Part shown: in pieces, positions 3,482 through 64,000 of the stretch
Layout of the letters: every line of letters begins with the position of its first letter
How positions within the stretch are numbered: position 1 is the stretch's first letter
Assembly (NCBI GenBank): GCA_013204605.1
Contig: JABMNI010000056.1
Span: forward strand, 1 to 64,000
DNA length: 64,000 bases
Source of the DNA: Ignavibacteria bacterium
GTDB taxonomy: Bacteria; Bacteroidota; Ignavibacteria; Kapaibacteriales; Kapaibacteriaceae
Direction: 5' to 3'
The notes under the pieces: model-generated
Seen by the model: the letters and a program-made list of their open reading frames with translations, nothing else
What the model was told of the DNA's origin: nothing
Databases searched by the model: none
Program-made: the position numbers and the translations under genes

Positions 3482-3542
3482 CTTCCCCGGCAACGACAGC
3501 CGCTTCCCCGGCAGGAACTCCCCGGCAGGAACTCCCCGGCAG
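3482..3542. repeat. degenerate CTTCCCCGGCA / CTCCCCGGCAGGAA minisatellite
   Basis: Starts one base after the mbnH stop codon. It holds about five TCCCCGGC cores, the last ones being perfect copies of the unit at 7-90. With the array at 4208-4272 it brackets the RAYT gene. Confidence 0.85.
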
Positions 3543-3655: not shown

Positions 3656-4204
3656 ATGCCTAGACGCAAAATTCAATTCTATTCAGGAGGTTTATACCAC
3701 GTATTAAATAGAGGGGCCTTCAAACATCGTGTATTTGAAAAAGACAAGTATTGTCGGGAATTTCTAAGGCTGCTCAAAACATACAGTGAAAGGTTTCAGA
3801 TATCAATTGTTGCCTATTGCATTATGCCGAATCACTTCCATCTCGTAGTTAGACAGGAGGGCCCCCATTCCGTATCAATATTTATGCGGTGTGTGTCGCA
3901 CAGATTTGCCATGTACTACAATCTAATGCAGAAGAAAACGGGAGTTGTTTTCGAAGACAGATTCAAGTGCATCAGCGTTTCTGACGACTCCTATATGTAC
4001 ACGCTGATAAGCTACGTCCACCTCAATCCAGTAAAGGCTCGCCTTTGCAAACATCCCAAAGATTGGTTGTACTCTAATTTCAATGCTTTCGTGGGAAAGA
4101 AGGCGGATACGATTACCAATTCAATTGCGGTGCATGACTTGTTCGGCGACCTGGAATCTTATAAAAGCGTTATGACTGACAATCTTCGAAAGCTGAAATT
4201 CTGA
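3656..4204 (+). CDS. REP-associated tyrosine transposase (RAYT, Y1_Tnp domain)
   Basis: 182 residues with the HUH single-strand nuclease fold of the IS200/IS605-related RAYT family: 'YHVLNRGA' (about 15-22), the metal-binding 'PNHFHLVV' (HUH, about 58-65) and 'SYVHLNPVKARL' (about 120-132). RAYTs are domesticated, single-copy transposases that process repetitive extragenic palindromes flanking them. A clear Shine-Dalgarno AGGAG lies at 3647-3651, unusual among its neighbours. The gene sits between CCCCGG-core minisatellites at 3482-3542 and 4208-4272, which are candidate substrates. The ORF looks intact. Confidence 0.92.
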   Translation: MPRRKIQFYSGGLYHVLNRGAFKHRVFEKDKYCREFLRLLKTYSERFQISIVAYCIMPNHFHLVVRQEGPHSVSIFMRCVSHRFAMYYNLMQKKTGVVFEDRFKCISVSDDSYMYTLISYVHLNPVKARLCKHPKDWLYSNFNAFVGKKADTITNSIAVHDLFGDLESYKSVMTDNLRKLKF

Positions 4205-48084: not shown

Positions 48085-48171
48085 CTGCCGGGCACTTCTG
48101 GCCGGGACAAATTGGCCGGGGAAGTCTGGCCGGGACAAATTGGCCGGGGAAGAACTGGCCGGGGAAGAACT
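48085..48171. repeat. GGCCGGGGAAGAACT / GGCCGGGACAAATT minisatellite
   Basis: About seven units built on GCCGGGRA, the reverse complement of the TCCCCGGC core of the arrays in the first 12 kb. It runs into the ORF-track N-terminus of the next gene ('MAGEELAGEEL'). Confidence 0.9.
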
Positions 48172-56796: not shown

Positions 56797-56820
56797 TTTT
56801 TTCTAGTTGCGATTAGGGCA

Positions 56821-56964
56821 GGCCTAACGCACTGGGCAGGCCTAACGCACTGGGCAGGCCTAACGCACTGGGCAGGCCTAGCGCACTAGACAGGCCTAGC
56901 GCACTGGGCAGGCCTAGCGCACAGGGTAGGCCTAGCGCACAGGGTAGGCCTAGGGCACTAGACA
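56821..56964. repeat. 18-bp minisatellite GGCCTAACGCACTGGGCA x8
   Basis: Eight units; the first three are identical (GGCCTAACGCACTGGGCA) and the rest diverge (TAGCGCAC, CAGGGTA, CTAGACA). The palindrome AGGCCT spans each junction. The frame on the minus strand would read 'LPSALG' repeats but is not a gene. Confidence 0.95.
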
Positions 56965-57111: not shown

Positions 57112-59796
57112 TTATCTTCCGAAGACAACCTTTGTGATCACGGCGTTGCCGTTGGCAATTGTTTCAAGGAAATATACGCCGGCATTCAAACCTGAACCGT
57201 CGTATGAAGTTTTGCTTGAACCCGACTGAACAGTGGGTGCAAGAATTTCCGCAATCTTAACGCCTAACACATCATACAGATTCATGCTGACCACTGCTTG
57301 GTGTGGTAGCGTGTATGAGATGTTCAAATTTCCGGAAGTTGGATTTGGATACACGGCAAGCGTTGAAGCAAAATATTCTTCATCAACTCCACTGGTTAAA
57401 CATACAACTGTTAACGTGTCGCTAATTGCAATGCATCCGTTTGCGACAGTGCTGTTCACGTAGTATTCACCACTACCGTTGCAAACAATTCGATTGCCAG
57501 AACCAACAGAGTTTGCATTACCAACCTTGTACCATGTATTTGCACCGGTGTACGGCGAGAACAAGGTGTCTTGAGTTTGAGTAATGGCAAGTCCATGAGG
57601 AACGGGTTTGACGGTAACGTTAATAGGATTTGTAACAATTTTACATCCGTCGGAAGTTGTTATGGTGACCGTGTACGCACCGGCGGTACCGGCTTTTATT
57701 GTTTTGGTCGTATCGCCGTTCGACCACAAATAGGTGGCACCGTCGGCGGCTATAAGATCAACGGGATAGCCTTGGCAAATGTCTGTGCTTCCATTTGTTG
57801 AGATAGTTGCCGATGCCGGAGCGTGAACTAAAACTATTTGATTTTTAGACTTCGTCACACAGCCCCCTTCACCAGTAACAGTAACCTTGAAATCGCCTGT
57901 TTTGTTTACAATAATTCCTTGCGTGATTGCGCCGGTGTTCCACAGATACGATTTACCTGGACTGGCTAAAAGTGTAACTGTGCCGGGACCGCAAAATGTT
58001 GTTGGGCCGTTGGCTGTGATGGTGTCTATGGGGAATGGATATACAGTAACGTTGACAAAACCAGACGTTCCAGGGCAACCTTTTGAACTAAGAACGGTGA
58101 CTGTGTACTTGCCGCTGGTATCTACGGTTATGGTCTCGGTGGTCTTACCATTTGACCAAAGGTAGGAGCCGCCAGAGGGTTTAGCAGTGAGTTGTACAGA
58201 ACTACCTTGGCAGAATGCGGTATCGCCTACAACGGTAATTGCAGCATTCGGAATACTATCTATATTAGCGTAAACGGTGGGAGACACGCCCGTACAACCT
58301 GAGTTGTTGTCGACAGTCACGGAAAACGAACCAATGCTGCGAACTACAATACTTTGAGTGGTAGCGCCTGTTGACCATTGATAGGCGGTACCAGTGTTTG
58401 CTTTTAGAACAACGGAGTCGCCTTTGCAGAAACTTCTTCTTTCACTACCTTCAATCCATGAGCCCGTAGAAACATTGTTGATGGTAAACGCTTGAGTATT
58501 TACAACCCCAGTTCTTACAAGTGCTCGGCCATCAATAACAGTGCCTGTCCTAATTTTAAGCGATCCATTGTTTACAACAATCGTTCCGCTCATTTTTGTG
58601 TTTGAATTCAAATCGGTAGCTCCATCAATTAGCCAGTACACATTTTTTGCCTGCGTTCCATTTGATAAAACAACCGAGGCGGCAGCTGCAGTAGTAAATG
58701 TTCCCTTAACCTTGATCACAAAAATTGCATCGGCATTACCACGCGCATTTAGCGTTACCGTCCCGGCAAACGTTGTGGTTGAATTCATGAGATATGTATG
58801 AGGTGTTAACACCAAAGCATTTCCAAACTCAGCCGGAGCCATGAGTTCAATATCGGTTGGCAGCGCATTTAGATAATTATAAACAGTTGTAATGTCCGTA
58901 GCTGCAGTTGCGGTAGAAGCGTCAGGAATAAGATGCATTGTGCACGATACGTTTGCTTGATCGAAGCCTGTCGTTGCCCCTACGTTGGTGCCAATAGTTC
59001 CAGCCACGTTAGACCCCCCCCCTAGGTTGGTAACCGCTCCATTTGAAGAGAAAAGACCATATGCACCGGTAGCACCTAGTTCGGGTGGTACAGGACCGTT
59101 AAGAGTTTTGCTTCCACATCCAATTGGGGTGTACGCAAACAGTTTGTTGACGGTAATAGCACCGGTTGTAGTAAGTGCCCGACCCTCCAAGGTGCAGCCA
59201 GTACTGAAGTCAATTGCCCCGTCTTTCGAAACAAATGTTCCGCGCATCACCGAGCCCGCTGCCACATTAATCTTTCCTTCGGCAAGCCAAAAAACATTGC
59301 AAGCCTGAGCGCCGTTAACGAGGTCCACACTTGCCGCAGCTGCGGTAGAAAACGCTCCTGTGAATTTGAAAATGAACACCGCTGAAGAATTCCCTTTTGC
59401 ATCGAGAATTAGGTTGCCATCTAGTATGGTTGCCGAATTCACCTTGTGCACACCGGCTAGAAGTGTGTTGCCGCCTCCAATTGGTGACGCTAAAGCATTG
59501 GTTTGAACGGCCTCACTAAGCTTTGTGTACAACGCTGTAAGATCGGCTTTTGCGTTCGCTGTAGCAGCATCACCACCGTGCATTGTACCGTCAACGTTTC
59601 CGAACCCTGAGCTGTATATGCTGTTCGATCCAACCTTGCCGGTAATCTTCGATGTACCGGTGTTTGTGATTGGTCCGAAGGCTGTGTACAGAACAAAATC
59701 TGCCGTCGATTTTAGGTCGGGGGCTTGGCAGTGCGCCCTATTTGGCATTATTAACGTTAAGGCCAAGCAGGCTGTAATTAGTAAAATGTGTTTCAT
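57112..59796 (-). CDS. secreted double DUF3494 ice-binding-like protein with T9SS sorting domain
   Basis: 894 residues: signal peptide (about 1-23); two DUF3494 ice-binding beta-helix domains (about 28-225: 'DFVLYTAFGPITNTGTSKITGKVGSN'; about 238-440: 'GAYGLFSSNGAVTNLGGGSNVAGTIGTN'), both with 'AVFIFKFTGAFSTAAAASVDLVNGAQACNVFW'-type cores; four Ig-like repeats ('YLWSNGKTTETITVDTSGKYTVTV', about 455-790); and a type A sorting domain ('LAVYPNPTSGNLNISY', 'SGLNAGVYFLETIANGNAVITKVVF'). DUF3494 proteins bind ice or act as adhesins. It would reach the surface through T9SS. Confidence 0.92.
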   Translation of the reverse strand: MKHILLITACLALTLIMPNRAHCQAPDLKSTADFVLYTAFGPITNTGTSKITGKVGSNSIYSSGFGNVDGTMHGGDAATANAKADLTALYTKLSEAVQTNALASPIGGGNTLLAGVHKVNSATILDGNLILDAKGNSSAVFIFKFTGAFSTAAAASVDLVNGAQACNVFWLAEGKINVAAGSVMRGTFVSKDGAIDFSTGCTLEGRALTTTGAITVNKLFAYTPIGCGSKTLNGPVPPELGATGAYGLFSSNGAVTNLGGGSNVAGTIGTNVGATTGFDQANVSCTMHLIPDASTATAATDITTVYNYLNALPTDIELMAPAEFGNALVLTPHTYLMNSTTTFAGTVTLNARGNADAIFVIKVKGTFTTAAAASVVLSNGTQAKNVYWLIDGATDLNSNTKMSGTIVVNNGSLKIRTGTVIDGRALVRTGVVNTQAFTINNVSTGSWIEGSERRSFCKGDSVVLKANTGTAYQWSTGATTQSIVVRSIGSFSVTVDNNSGCTGVSPTVYANIDSIPNAAITVVGDTAFCQGSSVQLTAKPSGGSYLWSNGKTTETITVDTSGKYTVTVLSSKGCPGTSGFVNVTVYPFPIDTITANGPTTFCGPGTVTLLASPGKSYLWNTGAITQGIIVNKTGDFKVTVTGEGGCVTKSKNQIVLVHAPASATISTNGSTDICQGYPVDLIAADGATYLWSNGDTTKTIKAGTAGAYTVTITTSDGCKIVTNPINVTVKPVPHGLAITQTQDTLFSPYTGANTWYKVGNANSVGSGNRIVCNGSGEYYVNSTVANGCIAISDTLTVVCLTSGVDEEYFASTLAVYPNPTSGNLNISYTLPHQAVVSMNLYDVLGVKIAEILAPTVQSGSSKTSYDGSGLNAGVYFLETIANGNAVITKVVFGR

Positions 59797-60006: not shown

Positions 60007-60567
60007 TCACCGCACCACGCTTACTGGTACGGTGGCTACGCTTGCGTGTAAATAAAGGACCAGCGAATAGATTCCAGATGGGATTTGAGAAACGCTGAAG
60101 GAAATCGTGGAAGTTTCTGGTTCCACAATTCCGGTTGCGATTTGACGACCATCTGGTGATACCACGACGTACCGTCCAGGTTTCTTTTGAGGAATGATGG
60201 TTACGGTCACAGCGTCCGAAGCCGGCATGGGCCATGCGGTTACGACTGCGTTGGCAGACCTCACGCTTTCTTCGTTAACAGAATTGATGTTCGGAGCGGT
60301 CAGCGGCAAAAATCCAAAGGTGCCACGATCGGAGCGTCCGGCGAATGCCTGACCGATGATAAAGCGAGCCACGGCTGGTTTGGCCGAGGGCGGCGTGGTG
60401 ACGGTGTGACCCGGTACCAGACCCATACGGTCAACCTGAGCAACCGTCTGCCCCGAACCATCCACAGCAAACAACATTACCAGAATAGAGAATAATCCTA
60501 CGGTTAGCTGATTTCTTACAATTAGATTTTGCAAGTTTTTCAGAACTGCACTCAGCAAGTTTTTCAT
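60007..60567 (-). CDS. secreted protein with T9SS-type C-terminal domain
   Basis: 186 residues: signal peptide ('LTVGLFSILVMLFAVDGSGQ'), a middle region with no known domain ('VARFIIGQAFAGRSDRGTFGFLPLTA'), then a short sorting-like domain (about 105-186: 'VVTAWPMPASDAVTVTIIPQKKPGRYVVVSPDGRQIATG', 'ISFSVSQIPSGIYSLVLYLHASVATVPVSVVR'). Two bases after the tail-collar gene, so part of the same operon. It might carry the other two proteins to the surface. Confidence 0.75.
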   Translation of the reverse strand: MKNLLSAVLKNLQNLIVRNQLTVGLFSILVMLFAVDGSGQTVAQVDRMGLVPGHTVTTPPSAKPAVARFIIGQAFAGRSDRGTFGFLPLTAPNINSVNEESVRSANAVVTAWPMPASDAVTVTIIPQKKPGRYVVVSPDGRQIATGIVEPETSTISFSVSQIPSGIYSLVLYLHASVATVPVSVVR

Positions 60568-60569
60568 AT

Positions 60570-61304
60570 CTACCTCACTCGAATGATGTACATCATTGTT
60601 ACTGAGGGCAGGGCTGCCGCAACGGCATCGTCATCGCCATTATTTGTCGACATTTCAGGCAGCGGTCTCACCAAATCAGTATTGCGAACCCCAGAGCCCC
60701 TTACAAAAACTCCTCGCAAATCTGGGATATTAAAATCGGGCTGGCCATCGCCATTGGCATCCTCGTTGCCCCAAATAGTCCCAATTACGGCGTATAGCGG
60801 GGCATTCGCGGCAATGCTCAGGGCACGTCCGTCGCACGCCAACCAATTTTGTGGTATCGACGCGGCAGACCCAGCGAACAGCTGAACAGCACCAATGGGC
60901 GACATTCCGGGGGCCGATCTGGCACGCAATGCAAGCGGCACGCTACCAACACGCATTCTTGGTTTAAGGGGCTCGATGGAAATTTGCGCCACGGTGATCT
61001 CGGCATAAAGTGGAGAATCGGCGGCGTTAGGCGGAAAATCGATGGCCTGTAATTCAGCTGTAAAGGCTCCATGAATTTGCGTGAGCTTCAATGAAATTGG
61101 TTCACCTAATATTTGGCCTTCAGTAAAAACGTCGAACCATTTTAGTGTTCCATTGTAATCGCCATCGGGCAGCGGCACACCGTTCAACGATGTAAGAACA
61201 CCCTGCAGTGATACCACATCGGTAGCTGGTTGTTGAGCGTTACTCGATAAAGCGAAAATCGAAAAAAGCATTAATGCGCAGAGAACAGCGGATGGATTTT
61301 TCAT
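60570..61304 (-). CDS. signal-peptide-bearing phage tail-collar domain protein
   Basis: 244 residues from ATG 61304 ('MKNPSAVLCALMLFSIFALSSNAQ'). N-terminal half beta-rich ('VVSLQGVLTSLNGVPLPDGDYNGTLKWFD'), then a tail-collar module (about 150-244): 'IGAVQLFAGSAASIPQNWLACDGRALSIAANAPLYAVIGTIWG' and 'DFNIPDLRGVFVRGSG'. Collar domains are found in phage tail fibres and in bacterial surface proteins. Its TAATG overlap with the Hcp-like gene shows the two are translated together. Confidence 0.85.
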   Translation of the reverse strand: MKNPSAVLCALMLFSIFALSSNAQQPATDVVSLQGVLTSLNGVPLPDGDYNGTLKWFDVFTEGQILGEPISLKLTQIHGAFTAELQAIDFPPNAADSPLYAEITVAQISIEPLKPRMRVGSVPLALRARSAPGMSPIGAVQLFAGSAASIPQNWLACDGRALSIAANAPLYAVIGTIWGNEDANGDGQPDFNIPDLRGVFVRGSGVRNTDLVRPLPEMSTNNGDDDAVAAALPSVTMMYIIRVR

Positions 61305-61840
61305 TACTGCCTCCAATCGTCGATGGCTGTTACTCCACCGGCAACATAGGTCCACTCAATTTTCTGATACGTAAATGATATCGTCTGCCGCGGACCGCGT
61401 GCATTCGTACCTTCCTCAATCTTCCAGCTTGCGGCTACACCTACTACCCTGGCCCCCGTGAGCTTGGTTGTTGCCACAAGAACACCCTGCTGCCACAACT
61501 CAATGCTGACCTCTGTTAATATTTCGCCAGTTGTCATTGCTTTGTATAACTGAGGCGTTGCTGCTCCCCACTCTTTGATAATGGTAAGGGGCTTGTGTTG
61601 ACGTTTACCCGTGGGCAAACCCGACGCGGCATCCCTAGGGGAAACAATTTCATGATCTACCGACGGAATTTTAATCGCGCCCTTCTTTTGAAGATCGGCG
61701 TCGGCATTTTCGCCGTTAAACTTACCCTGCGTAGCTCCGGTAATGTACATGCGTACTTCGGTAACGGCACCCGTCTGTGCAATTGCAGATGTGGCGGTAA
61801 AGCACGCAATTACGCCAAGCCCAATAATCCATTTATACAT
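61304..61840 (-). CDS. signal-peptide-bearing Hcp-like protein (T6SS tube fold)
   Basis: 178 residues from ATG 61840. Signal peptide 'MYKWIIGLGVIACFTATSAIAQ', then an Hcp-type beta-barrel: 'VRMYITGATQGKFNGENADADLQKKGAIKIPSVDHEIVSPRDAASGLPTGKRQHKPLTIIKEWGAATPQLYKAMTTGEILTEVSIELW' with the Hcp hallmarks 'KRxHKPLxIxKxxDxATPxLxxA'. Cytoplasmic Hcp forms the T6SS tube; here a Sec signal sends it out of the cytoplasm and no T6SS gene is near. A role as an extracellular ring or tube with the collar protein is a guess. Confidence 0.85.
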   Translation of the reverse strand: MYKWIIGLGVIACFTATSAIAQTGAVTEVRMYITGATQGKFNGENADADLQKKGAIKIPSVDHEIVSPRDAASGLPTGKRQHKPLTIIKEWGAATPQLYKAMTTGEILTEVSIELWQQGVLVATTKLTGARVVGVAASWKIEEGTNARGPRQTISFTYQKIEWTYVAGGVTAIDDWRQ

Positions 61841-61897: not shown

Positions 61898-61939
61898 TTG
61901 CCGGGGAACTTTGGCCGGGGAAGAATGGCCGGGGAAGAA
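61898..61939. repeat. GGCCGGGGAAGAAT minisatellite
   Basis: Three units (CTTGCCGGGGAACTT, TGGCCGGGGAAGAA, TGGCCGGGGAAGAA) ending at the stop codon of the SASA esterase gene. Reverse-complement core TCCCCGGC as at 7-90. Confidence 0.9.
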
Positions 61940-64000
61940 TCACCTCACAACAACCAGATTCCCATGCAGCGCCAACGCACCACTATCGATGCGCACGGTG
62001 TGCTGGCCGACAGGGATTCCAAGCGTACTAAACGAAACTTGATTGCCGGTGATGGTGAACGTAGTAATAGTTCGCTGAATTCCTAACGCATCAACAAGAG
62101 TTATTGCGGAGAGGTCTTGGAGGATTTGAGATTCTGCCGATGTGGGATGATGATGAATTGCATCAAGCTCAGGCAAAAAGACAGAGACCTCGTTCGAAGC
62201 CGGGTTGGGGACGATACGCATTGAAGTGCGCAGAGCCCTGGGCGTTTCGTTGTCTTCGACCTGCGTAATAGGTTTTGCCGTAATAGGAAAGTTGGCGAAT
62301 GTGAGAGCCCCAATGCCCCTTGCATTAACAATCCACGGACCCTCGTACACTACCGTTGTGTTGTTGTAATACACGGCGGGTATGTACGAAATGTTGGAGG
62401 CGTTCGAGGCCGCCGCAAGATGCAGGAAAATAGTGTCGGCCGAAGTTGAAATGGAATTGATCTTGGCTCCACCGTCAAGATAGATGTGGTCGCGAACAGA
62501 CTGCGCAATATTATTCGCCATCACGTCTGCTTGAATTTGTAAACCACCGGTTTTCGGTTTGAAAACCACAGCAATTTTGGTGCGATCGGTGCCGGTAAAG
62601 TATGCACGTAAAATGGCGGGGGCCGACACTCCAATGTCATCTGTCGAGTTGTAAAAATCACGTTCGACTAATCGGAATAAATTGTTGCCGAGTGCGGTGT
62701 AACCAACGGGGGTGTAGTGGCAGCCGTCGTGTCCGGGCAGCGCCACGGCCGACGTTACTTCAAGTTTTGGTAGCGAGTCCTGCATAGCCCGTTGCACATC
62801 TCGAAGCAAATCATGCGATGCGAAATTCGCGCACCCCGGACGGATTTGCACCATGTACACTCTTTGCAAACTCGGATAATCGCTCAACCAATCAGTGTGA
62901 AGTTTTCTAAAATTTTGAGCATAGTTTGTTACCTGGTTACTCTCGCCCTGATACCAAAAAAGTGCCTTTGCCTTGTCAGTAAATTTCGACTTTCGGACGC
63001 GGTATAGCATCGATCCATAAATCGAAGTCAACAGTTCCGGTTGATTATCAATGCGACTATTTTGCTCAATTGATGTTCCACCCACACCACCATTAATGAT
63101 ACAAACCGGCACCGCGTGGTTCTGCATTATCAGCTCTGCAAGACGCATTCCAAACGCACCAATATTCGAGCCGCCGCCCGATGCATTTGCATTCGAAAAA
63201 AGTGTGTCGCCCTTATTCGCACTCGCCGTTCCGCCATACGTACGCACAAATTCCAGCGCATTACTAACACCACCAAAAACCGTATTGCTCTGTCCCGCAA
63301 TTAAATACACATCGCCACACACAATACTATCGCGCACCGCGAGCATCGTACCAACCCCGTTTTTTACAGTCAGAACTTCAATGCGATATTCTCGCAACTC
63401 ACTTTGTATTCTAGTATTTAATTGAAAAGGGGCTGACCCATTTGTGTAACTCAGTTTTTGCGAAGTGCGTTCAATTAACAACTGATCACGGTACAACAGT
63501 AACGCGGCCGAATCTGCATTTGGTGCAACCACATAGCCCCTTACAGAAATATCGGCGCCATTATTTGCATCGCGCGGATAGAATTGCCTGGGCTGCGGGA
63601 TGGACGTAAAAGTAGTGTCGACAGGGGGCGCAACGTAACGCGTAATTCCGTATCGCTGCAACAAATACTCTTCGGTTTTGCGAGTGTCGGCGGCGGAAAG
63701 CGCCCGTGGGTAGAGTACCACTTCTGCAATGTCGCCGGTCATGAAATTCCCACCTGCATAGGCGGCGAGGTAGATGGTGGAATCGAGGTTGGTGCCAACA
63801 AAGGCAGAATCGCCCTGTTGACCGTTGATGGAAATCGACGCGTTCTGACTACCCTGGTTGTAGCGGACAGTTACCAGTGTAGGAGCAGTTGTTAGTGCAA
63901 CAGGGGCGGTTGCCAGGGTGCCGAAATCGCCGTGTAAGAGTCTGGTGGGATTGGCGTATGTGGCGTGCGTGGTGCCACTCACCACATTTATCGATCCGCT
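61940..64000 (-). CDS. SASA-domain carbohydrate esterase with T9SS tail (5' end outside window)
   Basis: At least 681 residues, frame open to the window edge, so the start lies beyond 64000. LamG/concanavalin-like part (about 1-100, 'VTVRYNQGSQNASISINGQQ', 'GDIAEVVLYPRALSAADTRKTEEYLLQRYGI'), an Ig-like linker, then a SASA (sialate O-acetylesterase-like) SGNH domain (about 225-430): Ser in 'GDVYLIAGQSNT', 'WYQGESN', and Asp/His in 'GHDGCHYTPVGY'. C-terminal sorting domain ('MRIVPNPASNEVSVFL', 'IPVGQHTVRIDSG'). Probably removes acetyl groups from polysaccharides at the cell surface. Confidence 0.9.
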   Translation of the reverse strand, partial: SGSINVVSGTTHATYANPTRLLHGDFGTLATAPVALTTAPTLVTVRYNQGSQNASISINGQQGDSAFVGTNLDSTIYLAAYAGGNFMTGDIAEVVLYPRALSAADTRKTEEYLLQRYGITRYVAPPVDTTFTSIPQPRQFYPRDANNGADISVRGYVVAPNADSAALLLYRDQLLIERTSQKLSYTNGSAPFQLNTRIQSELREYRIEVLTVKNGVGTMLAVRDSIVCGDVYLIAGQSNTVFGGVSNALEFVRTYGGTASANKGDTLFSNANASGGGSNIGAFGMRLAELIMQNHAVPVCIINGGVGGTSIEQNSRIDNQPELLTSIYGSMLYRVRKSKFTDKAKALFWYQGESNQVTNYAQNFRKLHTDWLSDYPSLQRVYMVQIRPGCANFASHDLLRDVQRAMQDSLPKLEVTSAVALPGHDGCHYTPVGYTALGNNLFRLVERDFYNSTDDIGVSAPAILRAYFTGTDRTKIAVVFKPKTGGLQIQADVMANNIAQSVRDHIYLDGGAKINSISTSADTIFLHLAAASNASNISYIPAVYYNNTTVVYEGPWIVNARGIGALTFANFPITAKPITQVEDNETPRALRTSMRIVPNPASNEVSVFLPELDAIHHHPTSAESQILQDLSAITLVDALGIQRTITTFTITGNQVSFSTLGIPVGQHTVRIDSGALALHGNLVVVR

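Follow-up and report, generated by a model that had tools for sequence, protein, structure and literature searches.

The locus described here encodes an Hcp that appears to be exported. Hcp is usually treated as a marker of the type VI secretion system (T6SS), and automatic annotation calls it so. In the window, by which we mean the whole stretch of 64,000 nucleotides that was analyzed, three closely packed minus-strand genes at positions 60007–61840 are arranged in the order Hcp, collar, and third gene (Table 1). The start codon of the collar gene shares one base with the stop codon of the Hcp gene (TAATG), and the third gene begins 2 bp past the collar stop. All three proteins of this triad carry an N-terminal signal peptide according to a rule based on hydrophobicity and the cleavage motif, which was used instead of SignalP. 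When this rule was checked on the loci of the genome scan presented below, none of the 17 loci with a T6SS gene was called exported, and none of the 26 exported loci had a T6SS gene. The host genome (2.69 Mb) encodes one Hcp and one collar protein, both in the triad. No phage structural genes were found among the immediate triad neighbors, and a promoter and terminator scan revealed no signal exceeding chance.

Table 1. Coordinates of the triad, of other features in the window, and of related loci
Feature	Position	Strand	Basis or remarks
Hcp-fold Sec-exported protein	61304..61840	-	178 aa; first triad gene; PF05638, TIGR03344, AF2, Foldseek
Hcp extended loop, residues 63–84 (HEIVSPRDAASGLPTGKRQHKP)	61589..61654	-	DSSP of AF2 model; conserved columns
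MAT-like/collar chimera, Sec-exported	60570..61304	-	244 aa; second gene; PF07484, MAT_N profile match
MAT-like β-rich N-terminal domain, about residues 24–134	60903..61235	-	NF053851 matches in orthologs; hhalign
Phage tail collar domain (tip), residues 138–201	60702..60893	-	PF07484; T4 gp12 sequence match
Small exported protein, T9SS-like C-terminal tail	60007..60567	-	186 aa; third gene; weak Por_Secre_tail
Exported protein with ice-binding-like stretches	57112..59796	-	directly downstream of triad
Exported SASA protein	61940..64000, runs on in L049 to 4412	-	directly upstream of triad
18-bp tandem repeat	56816..56959
CCCCGGC repeat clusters	61900..61936; 48115..48166; 3483..3512
REP-associated-transposase-like ORF	3656..4204		adjoins the cluster near 3483–3512
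Loop-motif proteins	L093 5439–6020, 7272–7814, 7844–8365	-
Loop-motif proteins	L090 2733–3260; L091 162–698; L092 78–518; L035 6486–7007
MAT-like collar genes without Hcp	L212 4965–7430; L214 5225–7908
Sec-exported Hcp-like loci	L101, L105, L107, L113, L121, L123, L143, L145, L148, L156–L162, L165, L167, L169, L170, L175		no T6SS gene in fetched locus

The surroundings of the triad contain several features of their own. The gene directly downstream encodes an exported protein of 894 aa that has a good T9SS tail and two stretches resembling ice-binding proteins (PF11999). Directly upstream is the gene for an exported protein that resembles sialate-O-acetylesterases (SASA) and matches laminin-G weakly. 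An 18-bp unit is repeated eight times in tandem and reads as LGLPSA repeats in one reading frame. A CCCCGGC repeat forms three clusters, located between genes or at gene ends, one of which lies ∼60 bp upstream of the Hcp gene; eight copies of TTCCCCGGC were observed in the window, compared to 0.5 expected. These clusters may be REP-type elements because a REP-associated-transposase-like ORF adjoins one of them.

The product of the first gene resembles an authentic Hcp both in sequence and in predicted fold. It matches PF05638 (T6SS_HCP) with an E-value of 1.6e-22 (80.6 bits; cut-off 23.5) and the curated TssD family TIGR03344 with 95 bits (cut-off 58.9). For the AlphaFold (AF2) single-chain model (mean pLDDT 89.8, pTM 0.79), the top Foldseek matches in the PDB are Hcps, among them those of V. 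cholerae, E. coli, and P. aeruginosa (target TM-scores ∼0.7 to 0.9). Between predicted strands 60–62 and 85–90 sits an extended loop, HEIVSPRDAASGLPTGKRQHKP, which holds four of the eight columns that are invariant across seven Hcp orthologs. In B. pseudomallei Hcp1, mutation of the extended loop abolishes ring stacking (PMC4650826), and the loop of the triad protein may, by analogy, be equated with this ring-stacking element. The triad Hcp therefore shares with T6SS Hcp/TssD proteins the fold, the curated family score, and the extended-loop motif, but it differs from them in having a Sec signal peptide (MYKWIIGLGVIACFTATSAIA, with Q following the cleavage site), in lacking a T6SS sheath gene in its genome, and in being encoded together with a collar protein. 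The Sec signal is present in the window copy and in every ortholog with a visible 5′ end, unlike in a cytoplasmic T6SS Hcp, which has none.

A loop motif of this kind (SPRDxASGxxTGKRQHKP) was also observed in small exported proteins of the same order that do not have the full Hcp barrel. One locus (L093) is a tandem array of five paralogs, three of which show the motif clearly. These proteins suggest that the Hcp extended loop is a reusable module.

Hcp matches are present in 18 of the 123 genomes of the order, which belongs to the Bacteroidota; the bacteria that carry the triad are uncultured. A full-length exported Hcp is encoded in seven, and in all seven it is accompanied by the collar and third genes. 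The resulting distribution of the triad (7/123: the host genome itself, G402, G105, G382, G462, G427, and G232) is patchy and covers two families, with gene order and strand kept. Five of the triads are complete and two are cut by contig ends: in G427 the 5′ end of the Hcp gene, including its signal peptide, lies beyond the contig end, and this genome was counted by gene order, whereas in G232 the Hcp gene is on one contig end and the other two genes are on another, such that adjacency is inferred. Identities to the window copies are low, amounting to about 25 to 43% for Hcp, 33 to 36% for the collar protein, and 19 to 32% for the third protein. A search with the collar alignment gave full-length matches exceeding 290 bits for six triads, the collar gene of G232 being cut by its contig end. 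Because the arrangement recurs in seven genomes, it is more than chance, and because the flanking genes differ between these genomes, the cassette looks self-contained. We also considered replacement of the protein in the Hcp slot, given two Hcp sequence types among the triads, and rejected it; in a poorly resolved tree, a single clade was not rejected by the AU test (p 0.35).

One explanation for an Hcp gene in this setting is that the triad is left over, or has strayed, from a T6SS or an extracellular contractile injection system (eCIS). In favor of such an origin, the Hcp scores above the curated TssD cut-off, and G105 contains one weak sheath-like match, which falls under the cut-off. However, the Hcp carries a signal peptide, its open frames are maintained across divergent species, and the sheath gene VipB is absent from the whole host genome and from all ten relatives that encode exported Hcps or proteins with the Hcp loop (0/11 genomes). 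The same model detected VipB in each of seven other genomes of the order in which signal-less Hcps lie beside T6SS genes (7/7), which served as positive controls. A phage or eCIS sheath was rejected, as no PF04984 match over the cut-off was found in the seven triad genomes. We therefore judge a contractile-system remnant to be extremely improbable. Judged from sequence, co-encoded export, conservation of the triad, and absence of the sheath are all well supported.

The third protein has a signal peptide with a long n-region, ending in ...GSGQ. The match of the window copy to Por_Secre_tail is marginal (18.8 bits; cut-off 27), but in G462, G427, and G105 the tail exceeds the cut-off of the Pfam sorting domain, and G382 also passes when the NCBIfam cut-off is applied. 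All seven triad genomes encode SprA, a T9SS protein. In common with T9SS type A cargo (PF18962, TIGR04183), the third protein has a signal peptide, a candidate sorting tail at the C-terminus, and a T9SS in its genome, but it is small, its short body has no assigned function, and the window copy is under the curated cut-off.

These findings confirm the observation made in an earlier note on this DNA, more strongly than the note had put it, and bear out its interpretation in part. The note had proposed that an Hcp-fold protein and a collar protein are co-exported, perhaps with a link to T9SS, and with no contractile machinery nearby. The fold is confirmed by the AF2 model and its PDB matches, the signal peptides recur in divergent orthologs, the sorting tail exceeds the cut-off in orthologs from genomes with SprA, and neither VipB nor an above-cut-off phage sheath occurs in the triad genomes. 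The neighborhood search for pairs of Sec-signal Hcp and collar genes that the note had recommended recovered them in the seven genomes of the order. Triads embedded in a normal T6SS were looked for in relatives and none was found, and the signal peptides, the other point on which the proposal had been considered vulnerable, held up.

We examined the two halves of the collar protein separately. The C-terminal portion matches PF07484 (2.8e-17) and has a sequence match to T4 gp12 (6.9e-7), whereas a Pfam search with the ∼110 N-terminal residues returned no match. Collar orthologs match NF053851, the NCBIfam model for the N-terminal domain of Bdellovibrio MAT (mosaic adhesive trimer) proteins, with E-values as low as 6e-10, with scores under its 60-bit cut-off. 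By using hhalign, six triad N-terminal domains were aligned with four Bdellovibrionales MAT_N domains, all of which exceed the NF053851 cut-off, with a probability of 96.9% (E 2e-10, 100 columns), compared to <1% for three unrelated controls. Note that the N-terminal sequence from the window by itself does not match MAT_N significantly, and MAT homology rests on the triad alignment. In the AF2 model, blocks of the N-terminal domain mostly have pLDDT values of 67 to 87, decreasing to 53 at the end, and a fold search of the PDB with the whole collar model, which is of moderate quality, gave no significant match. The best 80 IMG/VR matches to the collar protein cover chiefly the collar and the residues next to it, and none of these 80 spans the signal peptide and N-terminal half. 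On these alignments, the collar protein is a chimera, wherein a MAT-related N-terminal half of bacterial surface-fiber type is joined to a tip that is the only phage-like part. Within the collar protein, the view in the earlier note that phage-tail parts have been reused thus stands for the tip and gives way, for the N-terminal half, to a bacterial surface-fiber domain. A prophage origin was also considered and rejected, given that an IMG/VR search with the Hcp query found no confirmed viral relative, that the viral collar matches do not include the N-terminal half, and that the genome has a single collar gene.

The MATs of Bdellovibrio bacteriovorus are exported trimeric surface fibers with exchangeable phage-like tips, and they have a conserved β-rich domain of ∼130 aa after the signal peptide (PMC10769870). 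With this superfamily (PMC10769870, NF053851), the collar protein shares a signal peptide, a β-rich N-terminal domain whose homology is seen at the profile level, a phage-tail-like tip, and the exported surface-fiber type. However, MATs are typically about 1,000 aa in length and long-stalked, whereas the collar protein is 238 to 325 aa in the complete triads (244 in the window), has no visible stalk, ends in a collar tip, and scores under the NF053851 cut-off. Its gene also lies alongside those of an exported Hcp and of a protein with a T9SS tail. The collar domain is likewise held in common with the T4 gp12 short tail fiber and other phage collar proteins (PF07484), to which the triad protein, the product of the sole collar gene of its genome, adds the signal peptide and the bacterial MAT-like N-terminal domain.

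MAT-like collar genes also occur without Hcp. At L212 and L214 they are followed by genes for proteins with choice-of-anchor domains, and in G109, which has no Hcp, a choice-of-anchor protein is encoded two genes after the MAT-like collar gene. A surface-anchored partner may, as these loci suggest, be a wider habit of MAT-like collar genes.

The reading that we tentatively prefer, while regarding it as somewhat short of probable, is that the triad constitutes a self-contained surface-adhesin cassette made up of a MAT-like protein with a collar tip, a ring of exported Hcp as its platform, and a T9SS-tailed anchor. The signal peptides predict that Sec would carry all three proteins over the inner membrane. 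The collar protein is a very short MAT relative, in which a phage collar or receptor-binding tip follows the MAT-type N-terminal domain, and it might form a trimer whose tip makes contact with a glycan or a different surface ligand. Hcp would most likely form a hexameric ring or short stack as the base for this fiber, and a 6-fold ring would be compatible with a 3-fold fiber. The third protein, whose orthologs have a T9SS type A-like tail, could anchor or deliver the complex at the surface. Because no sheath is encoded, we would expect neither contraction nor injection. We infer the ring platform, the trimeric collar-tipped fiber, the joining of the proteins into one complex, the anchor role, the crossing of the outer membrane, and the adhesive function. 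This proposal is limited by the size of the collar protein, which is far shorter than known MATs, by the marginal third-protein tail in the window, and by the patchy distribution of the triad.

To survey exported Hcps beyond the order, we scanned GTDB genomes with four triad Hcps, because the alignment of all seven was too divergent for this purpose. The scan yielded 163 relatives, of which 80 were kept; this sample is not random, and because the scan patterns lie within the conserved loop, loop conservation among the hits is biased. Among the 80 are 26 loci outside the order that encode exported Hcps, and they derive from Verrucomicrobiota, Planctomycetota, Myxococcota (Nannocystis), Parvularculaceae, Armatimonadota, Nitrospira, Bdellovibrionales, Actinomycetota, and Bacteroidota. 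No T6SS gene and no collar gene is present within the fetched locus of any of the 26. On the Hcp tree, which is poorly resolved, about 12 changes are needed to account for the exported proteins. Automatic annotation would label the Hcp-like proteins at the exported loci in Table 1 as T6SS components, but the survey suggests that Hcp export without a detected T6SS sheath is common across phyla.

Exported Hcps without collar genes indicate that Hcp can act without a collar protein, and this counts against the cassette. They are compatible with another arrangement, in which three surface proteins share one operon and form no joint complex: Hcp would be exported as a binding protein that acts alone, the collar protein would be an adhesin in its own right, and the third protein would be ordinary T9SS cargo; the MAT-like collar proteins that lack Hcp in the same order (L212–L214) fit as well. 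Nevertheless, across the seven divergent genomes the three genes strictly co-occur in a fixed order, and in the window they overlap or are tightly spaced, which makes it quite unlikely in our estimation that the three act independently.

The same solitary Hcps bear differently on the main rival, which holds that the exported Hcp acts in the periplasm as a chaperone or carrier. Its ring lumen would keep either the collar protein or the small T9SS cargo unfolded, or shield it, until export, and the ring would belong to no surface structure. T6SS Hcp rings carry effectors in the lumen (PMC13323088), which offers a precedent, and the triad Hcp gene adjoins genes for two exported proteins, only one of which, the third, has a sorting tail. 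However, the mostly solitary exported Hcps of other phyla have no such partner, and the ring-stacking loop, the best-conserved part of the Hcp, is no less consistent with contacts between rings or with external partners. We consider a chaperone role unlikely.

Returning to the adhesin cassette, its parts are known, and the combination of an exported Hcp with a MAT-like adhesin has a fair chance of representing a new class of structure. We found no paper in the open-access literature that describes an Hcp exported by Sec alongside a collar protein. The fuller claim, that a Sec-exported Hcp ring or stack outside the inner membrane and independent of T6SS forms the base for a MAT-like trimeric fiber fixed by T9SS cargo, and thus an extracellular structure of a new class, is one that we would put forward as a doubtful possibility. 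The T6SS marker Hcp is exported here in genomes without a detected T6SS sheath. The surface partner of the MAT N-terminal domain has been named as an open question (PMC10769870), and if the Hcp ring binds a MAT-type N-terminal domain, it would be a candidate for that partner, and tail-tube and tail-fiber parts would have been reused extracellularly without contraction. If the new-class reading is true, the exported orphan Hcps of other phyla would be bases or tubes for other appendages.
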